Of a stretch of DNA of 64,000 bases, positions 10,810 through 44,022 are shown in pieces. The position numbers were made by a program, and so were the translations under genes. Under the pieces are notes generated by a model. That model had not been told where the DNA came from, ran no database searches, and saw only the letters and a program-made list of their open reading frames with translations. Within the stretch, counting starts at the first letter, position 1. Every line of letters begins with the position of its first letter. Origin of the DNA: Bacteroidia bacterium (lineage in GTDB: Bacteria > Bacteroidota > Bacteroidia > Chitinophagales > Chitinophagaceae); the NCBI GenBank assembly GCA_030427635.1, contig JAUIBA010000006.1, forward strand, positions 62,001 to 126,000. The letters are read 5' to 3'.

Positions 10810-11592
10810 ATGAATGAAATAATAACATTAAAAGCCATTGTGGTAGATGATGAGCCGGGAGCAGTAAATAATCTTTGTAAACTAATAAGCACCTACTGCT
10901 CTTCTATAAAAGTATCCGGCACATGTAATTCGGCAGATAGTGCTGCGGATATGATTAACAATACGAAACCTGATGTTGTATTTCTTGATGTATCCATGCC
11001 CGGCAAAAATGGCTTTGAACTACTGGGTATGCTCACATTTCATCCGCTGATAGTTTTTGTTACCGCATACGAGCAATACGCTATTAAAGCCATTAAAGCA
11101 TCGGCAGTAGACTTCTTACTGAAACCTGTAGATGTTAATGACCTGAAACAGGTAGAGCAAAAGTTACTGCATGTACAACAGTTTAAAACAAGTACCGGGA
11201 TGGCGGGATATAGCACAGCGCTAACCAACCTTGCCACTATTGTTGCCAACCCCGGAGCTGTGCGCACAATTACCATACCAACTGCCGATGGATACACCAT
11301 TGCAGACATAAAAGACATACTATATATGGAAGGCGTAAATAATTATACAGCCTTCCATTTCAGTAATTCTACCCGGGTTTTGGTATCCCGCACACTACGG
11401 GAATATGAAGAGCTGCTGTCTGATGCCGGTTTTATCAGGATTCACAAGTCAAGTATCATTAACCTCATGCACCTGAAAAAACTGTTAACAGAGGATGGCA
11501 TGAACGCATTAATGGCTGATGGCAAAACGCTTGCAGTATCCCGCAGAAGAGCATCGGAACTGATGGAACGTACAAAGCAATACAGGCTGTAA
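10810..11592 (+). CDS. LytTR-family response regulator
   Basis: A 260-residue regulator. The receiver domain (about 7-120) has the acidic pair VVDDE, phosphoacceptor Asp60 in VVFLDVSMPG, the switch Thr in VTAYE and Lys in FLLKPVD. A linker leads to a C-terminal LytTR DNA-binding domain (about 155-258) with IKDILYMEGVNNYTAFHF, FIRIHKSSIINLMHLKKL and LAVSRRRASEL. It binds direct-repeat LytTR boxes when phosphorylated, presumably by the kinase that starts 2 bases after its stop. No LytTR-type repeat was found in its own upstream region. Confidence 0.93.
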   Translation: MNEIITLKAIVVDDEPGAVNNLCKLISTYCSSIKVSGTCNSADSAADMINNTKPDVVFLDVSMPGKNGFELLGMLTFHPLIVFVTAYEQYAIKAIKASAVDFLLKPVDVNDLKQVEQKLLHVQQFKTSTGMAGYSTALTNLATIVANPGAVRTITIPTADGYTIADIKDILYMEGVNNYTAFHFSNSTRVLVSRTLREYEELLSDAGFIRIHKSSIINLMHLKKLLTEDGMNALMADGKTLAVSRRRASELMERTKQYRL

Positions 11593-35770: not shown

Positions 35771-38700
35771 ATGCCTGACCTTTTGTTAAGATACTATGGG
35801 CAACTACTCTGTTTGCTATTTCTGTCGCTACCAATGTATGCACAGCATACTGCCTCATTTAACCTGAATGCTGACAATGGGCTGTTATCAAACCACATAT
35901 ACGGATTAACAACCGATCACCTTGGATACTTATGGATAGCAACTGACCGGGGTGTATTGAAGTATAACGGATATGACTGTATATCATTTACAACAGCTGA
36001 CGGACTGCCTAGTGACGACGTGTGGGGGCTTTTGGAAGATAAAAAAGGTAGAATGTGGCTAAGTACAATTGCCGACCATGTAGGTTACATACATGAAAAT
36101 AAGTATAAAAATGCTATAAGCGATAAAATATCAGGTACATTCTACCCTATAATGATGAGCCCGATTGATAGTGGCATTTATTTTTCGAGTACACACCTGA
36201 ACGGCTTAACAAGCGCAATTATATGCATGGAAAGAAATGACACAATATTCCCATTTGAACTGTCTGATGAAAAATTTCACTACAAGTTCAAAACAAATGA
36301 CATTGGTGCATCAATACATTCAGGAACAAAAAAATATGTCTTCTACAAACGAAATGGGTTTCGCCTCGATAATCTCCATTTAGCTATTGACGCACCTGAA
36401 AAAGTAGCAATGACACTACTGCCTAAGTTAACATGGGAAATAATACAAAAATATATTAGTGGAGTTAGCACAGGATACATTACAATAAACATAGATGGCA
36501 ACTTTCTCTGTTATATTCCATATTTCTCTAAAAGTCTACTGAGGCTTAATCCGGAAACATCCATTATAGACACTATTAACCTAAAGCCATTGGGCTTTAA
36601 TGAAGAAATAGAATATATCAGCATTGGAAAAGATAGTAGTTGTGAAATAATCCATATATACTCATCCAAAAAGATCCTGTCTCTTGGCATAAAAGATGCT
36701 AAAATCGTCAAACATAGTACGATATCAATAGCGGAAGCAACATCGGGCAAAGGCGAAAACATAAAAGTAACCTGCAATACCAACCAAAGCATTTGGGACA
36801 TATGCATAGGAACAAATGATCATGGTACTTTCATAACGCGCGACTGTATCCCGTCAAAATTGTCTATTCCTGAATTCCTGAAATTATACCGTCCTTTAGG
36901 AACAGCTAATGGGTACAAGTATTGGTATAGCAACGCTACAAAGACATTGCTGTTATTGCAGAACAATAAAGCAGTAAAAGAATTCCATATAAACACAAAC
37001 GTTGAAAATGTTATTTCATATAACAATGATACAGTAATAATTTCCGGGCAACATGTGTACTATCTCAATACGAAGACAATGATATTGAGCAATGCACTAA
37101 TGACTGACTATGGAACGAATATCCGTAAAATCATAAGAGGAACAGCAAAAAACTACTTCATAATTGCAAGAACAGGGGCCTACTTTGTAGCAGATGACGA
37201 TGATAAGTCCAAAAGATCTGGCTTTAATCATATCGGTACTGAATGGTATGAAGGGGCAGGATATTATAGCTGTGAAAATGCTATTGTCGCATTTACAAGA
37301 AAAAAAATATCATTATTTAATGCCACTAATGGCACTCCCGACACTAACTCAATATTCTATCACAGAATTTTTAACCGAATAAAAGGCGTATCACTCGATA
37401 ATAGATATTGCCATATGTATATTCAGACCAATGACACTCTTTATAGATACAATTCTGCAACAAAAACGATAAATACAATAGACATAAATATAAACTTTGC
37501 TAACTGTAATATTCAAATAGTAAATGATCAGTTGATTTTATATGGCGACATTGGGGTATACTTCTATTTAATATTGCCCGATGGGTCATTGACAAAACCA
37601 ATAACCTATAATAACTTCAAAAAGCTTCGATATCGAAGCATCGATAAGCTATACATATTAGATAGTTCTTTACTAATACATACCGACAAGGGACAACTTT
37701 CGCTGCAAATACCAGACAGAGATTTGTTCTTCAAAAATGCATCCAACTACACAGATAGAAAAATATTACTTGCCAAAGTTGGTACACATACACGGCATAT
37801 ATCCCATAAAGACACATTGGAATTAAGCCAGAAAAACAAATTTATTTCTATGGATGTAATTAACCCATACGGCAATGGAAAATTGGCTGTATACTATCTA
37901 ACCAGAAAAAATGGAAACTGGGAAAAAAGCACGTCAAGTGAAGTAATACTGCCGGAATCTTTCAAACCTGACAGATACAACAAAATATGGGTATATTTTA
38001 AAGATGATGGATGGAAAAGTGATGTAATTGAATTAACCGTGTACATCACTCCTTTATGGTGGCAAACACGTAAGGCACAGCGGTTATTCTGGATTGGGGG
38101 TATCTTGTTAGGCATAGCTATAGTAAGTCTTGCAATATTTGTCACAAGAAGGATAGTAACAAAAGCGAACGAAAAACGAAATCTGCAAAGAGAACTAGAG
38201 CTGAAAGCAATTTATGCTCAAATAAACCCTCATTTTATATTTAACACACTTACATCGGCACTTCTGTTGGTAAGTAAGAACCGGATGGACGAGGCATATG
38301 TTCACATATCAAAATTCTCAAAACTATTGCGAAGCTATCTCAAATCGTCCAGAAACAAGTTTATTACACTGGCTGAAGAAATTGAAAACCTAAAAAATTA
38401 TACAGAACTACAACAAACAAGATTCAAGGAAAGGTTCAGATGTGATATTACTGTAGATGATTCACTTGATACAGAAAGTGAAAAAATACCTTCGTTATTG
38501 ATTCAGCCGTTTGTAGAAAATGCTATTAACCATGGAATTTTATACAGTGAAAATCAGGGATATCTGACTATTTCTTTTAAAAAAATTGCTCATGGCGTAG
38601 CATGCACTGTATCAGATAATGGAATAGGACGAAAAAAATCATTAGAAGCAAAAAATAACCAGGAAAATATTTTAGGGTCTTATGGCAACATGATGATTAA

Positions 38701-38815
38701 AGACCTGGTGGAGATTTTCAATAAATATGAAGATATGACCATTAGTATCAATTATGAAGATCACGAACCATCAGGCACAGGTACAACGGTAAAAATACTA
38801 ATTATAAAACAGTAA
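35771..38815 (+). CDS. LytS-type sensor histidine kinase with regulator propeller (AT-rich paralogue)
   Basis: A 1,014-residue kinase. The signal peptide is about 1-24 (ending MYAQH). The periplasmic propeller region starts with clear Reg_prop motifs (NGLLSNHIYGLTTDHLGYLW, DGLPSDDVWGLLEDKKGRMW), but later blades are degenerate. A diverged Y_Y_Y-like domain precedes a TM helix at about 776-796. The cytoplasmic kinase has phosphoacceptor His in INPHFIFNTLTS, then FVENAINHGIL and SDNGIGRKK. It is paralogous to the kinase at 11595 but sits before, not after, its LytTR regulator. Base composition is visibly AT-richer than its neighbours: the 60 bases from 37441 have 14 G/C, against 28 in the 60 bases from 12961 of the paralogue. 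Confidence 0.94.
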   Translation: MPDLLLRYYGQLLCLLFLSLPMYAQHTASFNLNADNGLLSNHIYGLTTDHLGYLWIATDRGVLKYNGYDCISFTTADGLPSDDVWGLLEDKKGRMWLSTIADHVGYIHENKYKNAISDKISGTFYPIMMSPIDSGIYFSSTHLNGLTSAIICMERNDTIFPFELSDEKFHYKFKTNDIGASIHSGTKKYVFYKRNGFRLDNLHLAIDAPEKVAMTLLPKLTWEIIQKYISGVSTGYITINIDGNFLCYIPYFSKSLLRLNPETSIIDTINLKPLGFNEEIEYISIGKDSSCEIIHIYSSKKILSLGIKDAKIVKHSTISIAEATSGKGENIKVTCNTNQSIWDICIGTNDHGTFITRDCIPSKLSIPEFLKLYRPLGTANGYKYWYSNATKTLLLLQNNKAVKEFHINTNVENVISYNNDTVIISGQHVYYLNTKTMILSNALMTDYGTNIRKIIRGTAKNYFIIARTGAYFVADDDDKSKRSGFNHIGTEWYEGAGYYSCENAIVAFTRKKISLFNATNGTPDTNSIFYHRIFNRIKGVSLDNRYCHMYIQTNDTLYRYNSATKTINTIDININFANCNIQIVNDQLILYGDIGVYFYLILPDGSLTKPITYNNFKKLRYRSIDKLYILDSSLLIHTDKGQLSLQIPDRDLFFKNASNYTDRKILLAKVGTHTRHISHKDTLELSQKNKFISMDVINPYGNGKLAVYYLTRKNGNWEKSTSSEVILPESFKPDRYNKIWVYFKDDGWKSDVIELTVYITPLWWQTRKAQRLFWIGGILLGIAIVSLAIFVTRRIVTKANEKRNLQRELELKAIYAQINPHFIFNTLTSALLLVSKNRMDEAYVHISKFSKLLRSYLKSSRNKFITLAEEIENLKNYTELQQTRFKERFRCDITVDDSLDTESEKIPSLLIQPFVENAINHGILYSENQGYLTISFKKIAHGVACTVSDNGIGRKKSLEAKNNQENILGSYGNMMIKDLVEIFNKYEDMTISINYEDHEPSGTGTTVKILIIKQ

Positions 38816-38847
38816 ATATTAAATCACAGGTGTTAACCGGTAATAAT

Positions 38848-39597
38848 ATGAGTCAGAATTATTCATGCATTATTATTGACGACGAACAGGATGCTATTGA
38901 CCTCCTTTCAGATCGTATAGAACAGCTATTTCATAATATAGATGTCGTTGCCACTTTTACACACTGGAAGCAGGCATTACCGGTACTTAGAGAAAATGAA
39001 TTTGACATATTATTTCTTGATGTTTCTATGCCGGAAAAAAGCGGCTTCGAGATATTGAAGTTGGTCCCGGGAATGGGTGCAGAAATAATATTTGTTACCG
39101 CACATGACAATTTTGCTTTAAAAGCATTTTCATTTGCAGCTACAGGATATATACTGAAGCCAATAGACGATAGCGATCTTGCCAATGCAATAGATAAAGC
39201 GCTGGAAAGAGTAAAGCTAAAAAGCATGCTGAAACGTGGAAGTACCAGTGCTGCTACATCAGGCACACCTAGCCAAAGTGGAAACGGAAAAATAAAAATA
39301 CCCAGCGGCACAGGTATTGATTACGTGAACATCAATGATGTAATATATCTGGAGAGCACTAATAAGTGTACAATGATAGTGACGAATAAAGGAAAATATA
39401 CAAGCTCTGCCAACATTGGTACATTCCGGTATTTGATTGATGATCATGCTTTTTTTCAGGTACACAGATCATTTATTGTTAATCTAAACAAAGTAATGAG
39501 ATACGAACTGACAGGTTTTGTTGTCATGGAAGACAAAACTGAAGTACCTATTGCCCGAAATATAAGGCAGGAATTCCTCCAGTTATTTGATAAGTAG
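38848..39597 (+). CDS. LytTR-family response regulator (partner of the AT-rich kinase)
   Basis: A 249-residue regulator; the ATG at 38848 is preferred over a GTG at 38830. The receiver (1-120) has IIDDEQD, phosphoacceptor Asp58 in LFLDVSMPEKSG, VTAHDNFALKAF and Lys in YILKPIDD. A Ser/Thr/Gly-rich linker (about 130-150) leads to a LytTR domain with IKIPSGTGIDYVNINDVIYL, FFQVHRSFIVNLNKVMRYEL and VPIARNIRQEFL. It starts 32 bases after the kinase stop and shares its AT-rich composition. Three LytTR-type boxes begin 24 bases after its stop codon and are its most obvious candidate target. Confidence 0.93.
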   Translation: MSQNYSCIIIDDEQDAIDLLSDRIEQLFHNIDVVATFTHWKQALPVLRENEFDILFLDVSMPEKSGFEILKLVPGMGAEIIFVTAHDNFALKAFSFAATGYILKPIDDSDLANAIDKALERVKLKSMLKRGSTSAATSGTPSQSGNGKIKIPSGTGIDYVNINDVIYLESTNKCTMIVTNKGKYTSSANIGTFRYLIDDHAFFQVHRSFIVNLNKVMRYELTGFVVMEDKTEVPIARNIRQEFLQLFDK

Positions 39598-39620
39598 GCC
39601 TGTTTTTCGCACATAGAAAT

Positions 39621-39675
39621 TACCGTTCGTCGGCTCAAAACTACCATTCGTCGGCTCAAAGCTACCGTTCGTCGG
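39621..39675 (+). promoter_or_regulatory. Array of three direct-repeat LytTR-type boxes
   Basis: TACCGTTCGTCGG (39621-39633), TACCATTCGTCGG (39642-39654) and TACCGTTCGTCGG (39663-39675), exactly 21 bp apart, with CTCAAA also shared between the first two spacers. The core ACCGTTCGTC is the same as the published recognition core of the LytTR regulator AlgR. Two-helical-turn direct repeats are the normal architecture of LytTR sites. The array lies immediately after a LytTR regulator gene. It should control a promoter just downstream (the short unit at 39.7-39.93 kb) or the regulator itself. Confidence 0.7.
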
Positions 39676-39759
39676 TTTGTGATGGCTATAAAATTATGGC
39701 ATCGTAATTTGCATGTGTTATCAGGATGGTAGCAGTGATTTACCCTACTATGCTGATAT

Positions 39760-39945
39760 ATGAAAAGTATACCAGCCCCGATTAACCTTTATGAAATATA
39801 TCCGAGTTCGAACTATAACCCTGTCAAACGTTTCACACCAGATGAAACAGGCCTTATTTCCCTTATGAAAATCAACCTGGAAATGGTTACAATGGCAGAA
39901 GAGAGTGTCTTAACAGACACTCTCTTCATTTATAGTACATTGTAA
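39760..39945 (+). CDS. Possible 61-residue peptide downstream of the LytTR boxes
   Basis: An ATG ORF of 61 residues (starts MKSIPAPINLYEIYPSS; middle FTPDETGLISLMKINLE) lying 84 bases after the last LytTR box. No signal peptide or TM is evident, and no family is recognised. Its last 16 codons run through a perfect 12-bp terminator hairpin (39898-39927). The ORF is therefore either truncated in effect, or the unit is a small RNA rather than an mRNA. Kept as a low-confidence gene because of its placement. Confidence 0.3.
   Translation: MKSIPAPINLYEIYPSSNYNPVKRFTPDETGLISLMKINLEMVTMAEESVLTDTLFIYSTL
39898..39927 (+). terminator. Intrinsic terminator hairpin
   Basis: A perfect 12-bp stem (39898-39909 with 39916-39927) and a 6-base loop TTAACA, followed by ATTTATAG. 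It ends the short unit downstream of the LytTR boxes. On the other strand it lies 29 bases past the stop of the collagen-like gene and may act for both. Confidence 0.75.
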
Positions 39946-39956
39946 TCAACTGTATA

Positions 39957-40475
39957 TTACCCTGCAGAAGTGTTGACCTGACGGGACTTCTCAATAGCCC
40001 CCATAGCAGCTTTGTAATTATTCCAATCCGTATCAGGGTTTGCCTGACGCAATGCGCTGGAAATAACCACCAACCTAAATGTAACTGTACCTGGTAGTGG
40101 AGGGACAGATCCGTCTACTGTTTGTACATATATCTTAAAGCCACCATCAAAAAAATTGAAAACAGTAGCTATGTTCCCGTTTACATCCGGCAAAGGGGTC
40201 CATTCATAGTTTCCATAAGCCTTGAATAATGATACTACGCCAAAATCTACAATATCAGTAGTAATATCGCTACTGTTAAATGTAGCGGTATACATATTGA
40301 TACCGGCCTCGTAAGTCCAGTTAGACACTGTAAATGGGTCTGAAGCAATAACATTTGCATTGCCCTGCGGCCCCTGTGGACCTTGAGGCCCCTGCGGTCC
40401 CGGAGGACCCGTTTTAGTACAGCCAGTGAAAACAAAAGTGCTTGCAACAAGAAGAAACAAGAAAAACCTTTTCAT
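39957..40475 (-). CDS. Collagen-like lipoprotein
   Basis: A 172-residue protein with a lipoprotein signal (1-19, lipobox FTGC). It is followed directly by a short collagen-like run of about six G-x-y triplets (GPPGPQGPQ...), then a beta-rich domain (SDPFTVSNWTYEAG, VDFGVVSLFKAYGNYEWTPL, GTVTFRLVVISS). The triplet run followed by this domain is a common Bacteroidota lipoprotein layout of unknown function. It would sit on the periplasmic or outer face of the outer membrane. Expected 5' leader of about 105 bases from the box at 40586-40593. A small ATCCAC/GTGGAT inverted repeat lies in that leader (about 40490-40512). Confidence 0.85.
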   Translation of the reverse strand: MKRFFLFLLVASTFVFTGCTKTGPPGPQGPQGPQGPQGNANVIASDPFTVSNWTYEAGINMYTATFNSSDITTDIVDFGVVSLFKAYGNYEWTPLPDVNGNIATVFNFFDGGFKIYVQTVDGSVPPLPGTVTFRLVVISSALRQANPDTDWNNYKAAMGAIEKSRQVNTSAG

Positions 40476-42595: not shown

Positions 42596-43246
42596 TCAGG
42601 ATACGATCCTGTTTCTAATGGCATATAATACAAGTCCGGCAGCATTACGTGTGCCGGTCTTCTCTATCAGAGATGCCCGTATTCCCTCTACTGTTCTGGC
42701 ACTGAGATTTATCATATCACCTATTTCGGCCGCAGTCAGCTCCTGACAAATTAGCTTTAACACCTCAGTTTCCCGCTCAGTGAGTTTTACCTGAGGCATA
42801 GTTACAACAGGCGCTCTTTTTTTCATCATCACTTTACGAAGCAGTGTAGCACTCACAAGGTCACTGAAATAATACTCACTTTCCCACACAGTATGAATAG
42901 CCATAGATATCTCGTCCGGTTCAGCATTTTTCAGCAAATAACCATTTGCGCCAGTTTCCATAAGGTGTATAATAAAATGCTCCTCCTCATACATGGTCAG
43001 TATCAGCACCCTGAGGTCGGGGTACTGTGACCTTATACGCCCCAGTGCTTCAATGCCATCCATGTCGGGCATCTTTATATCCAGCAGCACAACATCCGGC
43101 TGACGAATTTCGAGTAATGCAAGTAACTCCACTCCATTACCTGCCTCCCCAGCACATTTCAATGATGGGTCGGTACCTAATGTCAGCTTCAGTCCCTGAC
43201 GAAAAATTTTATGGTCGTCTGCAATCACATATTCTATTACTTTCAT
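42596..43246 (-). CDS. NarL/FixJ-family response regulator
   Basis: A 216-residue regulator from the ATG at 43246. The receiver has VIADDHKIFRQGL, phosphoacceptor Asp56 in VVLLDIKMPDMDG and LLKNAEPDEI. The LuxR-type helix-turn-helix (about 148-212) has LTERETEVLKLICQELTAAE and ARTVEGIRASLIEKTG. Its ATG shares one base with the kinase stop (TGATG), so it is translationally coupled to the histidine kinase. It is the third gene of a membrane protein-kinase-regulator operon. Confidence 0.94.
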   Translation of the reverse strand: MKVIEYVIADDHKIFRQGLKLTLGTDPSLKCAGEAGNGVELLALLEIRQPDVVLLDIKMPDMDGIEALGRIRSQYPDLRVLILTMYEEEHFIIHLMETGANGYLLKNAEPDEISMAIHTVWESEYYFSDLVSATLLRKVMMKKRAPVVTMPQVKLTERETEVLKLICQELTAAEIGDMINLSARTVEGIRASLIEKTGTRNAAGLVLYAIRNRIVS

Positions 43247-44022
43247 CAAAGACGTTTTTCAGATAAAGGTGTTTCAATGATAATTCTGTAAGCGTCGCCC
43301 TGCATATCAAATGAAATTGACGCATTTACAGACTTCAGTCTGTTTACAATATTCTTTAAGCCAATAGCTCCTTTTTTATACGTAAGCTCTTTGTATGATG
43401 TCTCCGTTAGTCCTTCTCCATCATGCACAATAACTGTTCGCAACCCTGCGGGCAACAGCAATGTCTCGATGGTAATTGATGAAGCATGAGCATGCTTCAA
43501 TATGTTGCTGGTAAGCTCCTGAAGGATGCGGTATACCGATAACTCTACATTATCATTAAGCCGGGGAAGCGGCACCGGACAGGAATACTCTATGGTAATA
43601 TTACCTGTCTTACTTAGCATTGCCGCAAATGATTCAAGTGAGGCCTGTAAACCCAGCTGCTGTAGCAGCGCCGGCTGTAGCTTATGAGAAATATTGCGAA
43701 CCTTACGGATACTATCGTCCAGCAAATCTCGGGACTGGTCCAGTATTTCAGCATCTGAACTCCGGCGGGCTGCATGTAAAAACAAGCGTACAGATGATAG
43801 TGTTGCCCCCACATCGTCATGCAGTTCAGAGGCTATACGCATACGCTCTTCTTCTTCGCCACGTATAGATGCCTGTATCAGTTCTATCTGCTTGCGCTCA
43901 TTTATACTTCTTATGTCTTCCTGATGTTTGATGACACGGCGCTGGTATAAGACTACGAAAAAAACGATGCCTACCGATAGCAGCAGCATGACCGCAATAG
44001 CCGTTATGACGAGCGAACCCAT
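43246..44022 (-). CDS. NarX-type sensor histidine kinase with a single TM helix
   Basis: A 258-residue kinase. One N-terminal TM helix (about 4-26) is followed by a short coiled coil and a HisKA_3 domain with EEERMRIASELHDDVGATLS (phosphoacceptor His68). A HATPase_c domain contains RILQELTSNILKHAHAS and GAIGLKNIVNRLKSVNASI. There is no periplasmic sensor domain, so the signal must come through the TM helix or a partner protein. The gene overlaps the upstream membrane-protein gene by 19 bases, which makes that protein the obvious partner. Confidence 0.92.
   Translation of the reverse strand: MGSLVITAIAVMLLLSVGIVFFVVLYQRRVIKHQEDIRSINERKQIELIQASIRGEEEERMRIASELHDDVGATLSSVRLFLHAARRSSDAEILDQSRDLLDDSIRKVRNISHKLQPALLQQLGLQASLESFAAMLSKTGNITIEYSCPVPLPRLNDNVELSVYRILQELTSNILKHAHASSITIETLLLPAGLRTVIVHDGEGLTETSYKELTYKKGAIGLKNIVNRLKSVNASISFDMQGDAYRIIIETPLSEKRL

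Follow-up and report, generated by a model that had tools for sequence, protein, structure and literature searches.

FasA of Streptococcus pyogenes is a LytTR-type regulator, and RNAIII of Staphylococcus aureus carries C-rich unpaired motifs. The fourth gene of the fasBCA-FasX locus of S. pyogenes encodes a regulator-controlled RNA of ~205 nt that tunes surface proteins (PMC7602753), and in the agr-RNAIII system of S. aureus the effector RNA, whose gene adjoins the system, is switched on by a LytTR regulator and has a surface- and secreted-protein output (PMC7602753, PMC3673130). The two-component regulator of the VirRS-VR-RNA system of Clostridium perfringens drives a trans-acting RNA together with secreted proteins (PMC7602753), and VirR is described as binding two imperfect direct repeats (PMC4064291). 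Typical LytTR sites are repeats of ~9 bp with 12 bp between them, i.e. a 21-bp period (PMC6193735). Within the Bacteroidota, GibS and FopS of Bacteroides thetaiotaomicron are intergenic small RNAs (sRNAs) that end at an intrinsic terminator and carry their seed in a single-stranded region (PMC7366714, PMC11697453); the FopS report has this sRNA acting on surface proteins and describes the extra enhancer of sRNAs such as FopS as an unknown transcriptional regulator (PMC11697453).

Here, we describe a locus that is, by analogy, a Gram-negative counterpart of the staphylococcal and streptococcal systems in which a LytTR regulator is paired with an RNA. As in fasBCA-FasX, a regulator gene is followed by a small-RNA gene under its predicted control, whereas here the kinase is of the beta-propeller type, the host belongs to the Bacteroidota, and the RNA gene is preceded by an array of two or three boxes and a Bacteroidota -7 element; no sequence relation to FasX was seen (no Rfam match). 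The locus resembles agr-RNAIII in the adjacency of the RNA gene, the predicted surface- and secreted-protein output, and the C-rich unpaired motifs, but its units lack a conserved peptide frame, measure 120-270 nt (RNAIII: 514 nt), and lie downstream of the regulator gene on the same strand (the RNAIII gene is divergent). With VirRS-VR-RNA it shares an RNA and secreted proteins as predicted outputs, in another phylum, with another RNA, and with an RNA gene that usually adjoins the regulator gene. Like GibS and FopS, the predicted RNA is an intergenic Bacteroidota sRNA with a single-stranded candidate seed and a terminator; the LytTR array sets it apart, none being described for those two sRNAs in the accessible parts of their reports, and no sequence relation to either was found. 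The features discussed below are numbered along the window, i.e. the whole stretch of 64,000 nucleotides that was analysed:

35771..38815, plus strand: sensor histidine kinase of the propeller type (Pfam Reg_prop PF07494 and His_kinase PF06580, above cut-off)
38830..39597, plus strand: LytTR response regulator (Pfam Response_reg PF00072 and LytTR PF04397), probable ATG start at 38848
39621..39633, plus strand: LytTR-type box 1, TACCGTTCGTCGG, exact match, confined to the array in this genome
39642..39654, plus strand: LytTR-type box 2, TACCATTCGTCGG, exact match, 21 bp from box 1
39663..39675, plus strand: LytTR-type box 3, TACCGTTCGTCGG, exact match, 21 bp from box 2
39705..39712, plus strand: predicted -7 promoter element, TAATTTGC, starting 42 bp after the start of box 3
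39717..39934, plus strand: predicted small RNA of ~218 nt, its start taken from the -7 placement and its end from the terminator, with homologous units in relatives
39760..39945, plus strand: ORF of 61 codons, probably not a gene (not conserved, without a Pfam match, and extending across the terminator)
39773..39779, plus strand: conserved motif CAGCCCC, present in 12 of 14 units
39898..39927, plus strand: terminator-like hairpin with a 13-bp stem, a 4-nt loop, and a weak T tract (ATTTAT)

By its Pfam domains the pair consists of a LytTR response regulator and its cognate kinase, and it is conserved in relatives: the kinases beside the regulator orthologs of two of them (G009 and G013) have the same Reg_prop and His_kinase architecture. 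The regulator is one of many, as 28 LytTR-type regulator matches were counted in the window genome. A further match to a LytTR-type response regulator, with 31% identity, lies at 10831-11484 of the window (plus strand).

The original prediction had placed three TACC(G/A)TTCGTCGG boxes, in 21-bp phase, at 39621, 39642, and 39663, beginning 24 bases after the regulator gene; all three are exact matches, and the gap is indeed 24 bases when counted from the end of the stop codon to the start of box 1. Across the whole 4.25-Mb genome, exact copies of ACCRTTCGTCGG are confined to these three boxes, and the composite of a box, 28-32 bp, and TAnnTTKC occurs once. Exact phasing and genome-wide uniqueness together rule out a chance origin of the boxes. 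Judged from sequence and position, it is reasonable to regard them as putative LytTR sites, because their core is identical to that of AlgR of Pseudomonas aeruginosa, CCGTTCGTC, and their period is that of LytTR repeats; they thus recur in direct orientation at intervals of about two helical turns, ahead of a predicted RNA promoter. The likeness to AlgR ends with the core, as phased direct repeats are not a necessary feature of AlgR sites and AlgR has another kinase and other targets (PMC4064291).

Overlooked in the original prediction were the -7 element TAATTTGC and the CAGCCCC motif. The flavobacterial -7 box sits at -12 to -5 (PMC9723704), from which placement a transcription start near 39717 is predicted. 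An element of the TAnn type is present in all 12 aligned loci (window included), mostly as TAnnTTGC, and its distance from the start of the last box is nearly fixed, at 42 bp in nine loci and 43 bp in three. The Bacteroidota sigma-A consensus is TAnnTTTG at -12 to -5; the TAnnTTGC of most loci is a form one base shorter, nearer to TAnnTTGY, reported as motif SM5 in Flavobacterium psychrophilum (PMC9723704), than to that consensus. Because of this resemblance to SM5, another, alternative sigma factor may act at these promoters. At the usual distance no -33 TTTG is seen, which would suit an activator-dependent promoter.

The regulator was sought in 35 genomes of the genus, most of the relatives being metagenome-assembled genomes, and orthologs were found in 13, the window genome included (49-64% identity in the 12 others). 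When the box array was looked for beside these orthologous regulators, as had been suggested with the original prediction, it was found repeatedly. Twelve loci (window included) have two or three boxes at 21 bp, then a -7 element, then a terminated unit, and in most genomes the 3' end of the regulator gene is followed directly by the array. A sequence model of the array and promoter (R1; threshold E <= 0.001) matched all 13 genus genomes with a regulator ortholog and two of the 22 without (Fisher p = 7e-8, a value that is partly circular through the R1 training genomes, as all 13 training rows were drawn from ten of the 13 ortholog-bearing genomes); matches independent of training are those in G002, G003, G007, G010, and G046. 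Array-model and pattern searches of the window genome gave no convincing second array or second target. The weak R1 match on G000:C39 (E = 0.035), without a recognisable three-box array or -7 element, was judged to be due to chance.

The unit is usually present in one copy per genome. One exception, from outside the genus, is locus L188 (G386:C5, reverse strand), where two array-plus-terminated-RNA units stand in tandem, ~430 bp apart, each with GGAAAAAATATACC before its terminator. Also outside the genus, similar array-RNA units were found, one each, in G189 and G233, and in Bacteroidetes bacterium 46-16 (L114) a CAGCCC motif lies behind the regulator ortholog. Two genus members depart from the common arrangement: in G045 the whole block of array, -7 element, RNA, and terminator is inverted behind the regulator gene, and in G007 contig 70 carries the regulator and contig 46 the array and RNA. 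Since it is inverted in the one genome and unlinked from the regulator in the other, the block appears to be an independent transcription unit. The 3' part of the G007 RNA (L147, G007:C46; regulator L004, G007:C70) is nearly identical to that of G013 and may have been moved or exchanged.

Between relatives, the unit varies from 120 to 270 nt, and the hairpin at its end is mostly accompanied by a T run. The window stretch 39717-39934 folds far better than its shuffles (z = -4.3). The hairpin at 39898-39927, previously described as a perfect 12-bp terminator, is where it was said to be, although its stem has 13 bp. Two short, C-rich motifs, CAGCCCC and TATACCCA, sit in poorly structured stretches, and TATACCCA is unpaired and directly before the terminator in most units. 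CAGCCCC occurs in 12 of 14 units and TATACCC in 11, against dinucleotide-shuffle means of 0.33 and 0.41, respectively, and never more than four in 2000 runs. The terminator stems differ wholly in sequence between species while the pairing is kept. Likewise, as read by eye, two changes in a predicted stem between G021 and G050 preserve pairing (AUACAGC/GUUGUAU to AUGCAGC/GUUGUGU), and this pair of genomes differs further by a change in the terminator loop. A covariation-backed structure for the entire RNA was not obtained: RNAalifold on the 3' parts gave only five consensus pairs, every one in the terminator. The window unit is among the most divergent: TATACC is fused to CAGCCCC (GTATACC at 39767-39773 precedes the latter, a partial match to TATACCC), the T tract is weak, and TATACCCA is missing ahead of the terminator. 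It is not recovered by R2, a model of the 3' parts of the other units, and in genomes without the regulator R2 gives no more than weak matches. No unit matches Rfam 15 at gathering score, with four chance-level matches only, and the best reading is an RNA family of Chitinophagaceae-type genomes that is absent from Rfam. A leader or attenuator of a downstream gene was rejected, as the terminator follows and the next gene (39957-40475) is convergent.

The short unit is thus terminated and conserved at the RNA level, and it was originally predicted to yield either a small RNA or a peptide; the evidence favours the RNA, as nucleotide motifs are conserved and reading frames are not. From the conserved motifs, the paired but variable terminators, and the unconserved frames, we conclude that the tiny gene very probably yields a regulatory RNA and not a protein. 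That it encodes instead a small peptide, in the manner of the Firmicutes cassettes and with or without an RNA role (the dual function of RNAIII), is quite improbable. Such a peptide could be read from the predicted 61-codon frame at 39760-39945, which does exist, has an ATG start, and does overlap the hairpin, and the start of a TTG-initiated ORF in G018, the closest relative of the window genome, resembles it (MKSIPAPINLYEIYPSSNYNPV against LKNNPTPDTLEKYPNSTPCNPV). Yet the nucleotide alignment of G000 with G018 has 1- and 2-base gaps, the frames of the remaining units are short, unrelated, or overlapping, and in G019 and G042 the frame that passes through the conserved motif is closed upstream by a stop codon and offers no start codon (ATG, GTG, or TTG). 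Conservation is moreover at the nucleotide level, and the window ORF crosses the terminator hairpin. No reading frame conserved among orthologous units was found, which disposes of a conserved peptide, nor did the units contain a conserved short ORF that could be the precursor of an agr-type autoinducer peptide. There is a small remaining chance that in the window genome the unit acts both as an RNA and through a peptide.

We regard it as likely that the regulator activates a small RNA through which the system exerts post-transcriptional control, probably by base-pairing with mRNAs. In response to a signal, the propeller kinase would phosphorylate the LytTR regulator, which would bind the two or three phased boxes cooperatively on one face of the DNA and recruit RNA polymerase to the promoter with its -7 element and no obvious -33 element, activating rather than repressing it. 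The ~218-nt RNA would then be made, ending at the hairpin, and its C-rich single-stranded motifs could pair with G-rich stretches of target mRNAs, as their unpaired state suggests. Bacteroidota mRNAs lack Shine-Dalgarno sequences (PMC6847099), and ribosome-binding sites therefore cannot be presumed to be the targets. The core of the original prediction, that the LytTR regulator switches on the adjacent short unit, gains strong support at the level of sequence from the conserved array, the promoter spacing, and the terminated unit. The position of the array directly behind the regulator gene in most genomes would suit boxes that serve the regulator operon itself, by autoregulation or by titration at its 3' end, with the short unit incidental. 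We think this very unlikely, as inversion (G045) and separation from the regulator (G007) leave the array, the -7 element, and the terminated unit in one block, the -7 element keeps a fixed distance of 42-43 bp from the array, and secreted-protein genes elsewhere are preceded by arrays built in the same way. The main rival for the base-pairing step is a regulator-controlled RNA that works by binding protein, as a decoy or sponge. A shared protein-binding site could explain why TATACCCA occurs in the sense orientation at L161 (G009:C6), immediately ahead of the start codon (ATG) of a secreted-protein gene with its own array, and ATACCCA downstream of the array at L193 (G386:C44), but these are two cases only, near chance, and the Bacteroidota RNAs GibS and FopS act by seed pairing (PMC7366714, PMC11697453); the decoy is unlikely, and mRNA pairing is the reading we retain. 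When complements of the motifs were sought near array-driven genes as a sign of mRNA targets, no pattern emerged.

The other R1 arrays in relatives precede mostly genes for secreted proteins. One of these proteins combines an NHL propeller with a T9SS sorting tail; others are a lectin-domain protein (its lectin match below the Pfam cut-off), Omp28-like proteins (a T9SS tail was seen in the one scanned), and a Big_2-domain protein. In relatives, therefore, the regulator would also be a direct activator of surface-protein genes whose products are secreted, T9SS-sorted, or lectin-like, and since their arrays precede such genes, the output of the system is probably a surface-protein switch. G019 has nine R1 array matches (including L137 and L156, G019:C71, and those on G019:C119 and G019:C146); the ones that were read precede RNA or secreted-protein genes, which points to an expanded LytTR regulon in that genome. 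In the window genome, where the sole convincing array is at the RNA gene, the RNA looks like the main output. The self-contained cassette originally envisaged therefore holds in part: adjacency is usual, but arrays of relatives also precede genes for T9SS-type secreted proteins and the RNA gene of G007 is unlinked.

In a literature search that covered few subscription papers, no small RNA under LytTR control had been described from Bacteroidota, which is consistent with the earlier remark that such a cassette had not been described for propeller-type kinases of this phylum. We give an even chance to the broader proposal that Bacteroidota independently built an agr/Fas-like circuit, in which a propeller-sensor LytTR system has as its effector a family of C-rich-seed regulatory RNAs, conserved in several genera, and these RNAs, along with the surface-protein genes that are activated directly, reshape the surface proteome of the T9SS. 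The case suggests that the pairing of regulator and effector RNA has more than one origin among LytTR systems. The case supplies a sensor, a regulator, likely binding sites, a promoter of fixed geometry, and a conserved RNA, and is hence directly testable. LytTR regulators are numerous in Bacteroidota and their targets largely unknown, which gives value to mapping their regulons, for which the array-plus-promoter model (21-bp phasing, -7 element at 42-43 bp) can be used.

Two neighbours of the locus may be recorded here. The convergent gene at 39957-40475 (minus strand) encodes a lipoprotein-like product with collagen-like GPQGPQ repeats, for which a Pfam scan gave no match. A second two-component pair, read from the sequence as a NarL/FixJ-like regulator and a kinase, occupies 42596-44022 (minus strand), ~3 kb from the LytTR system.
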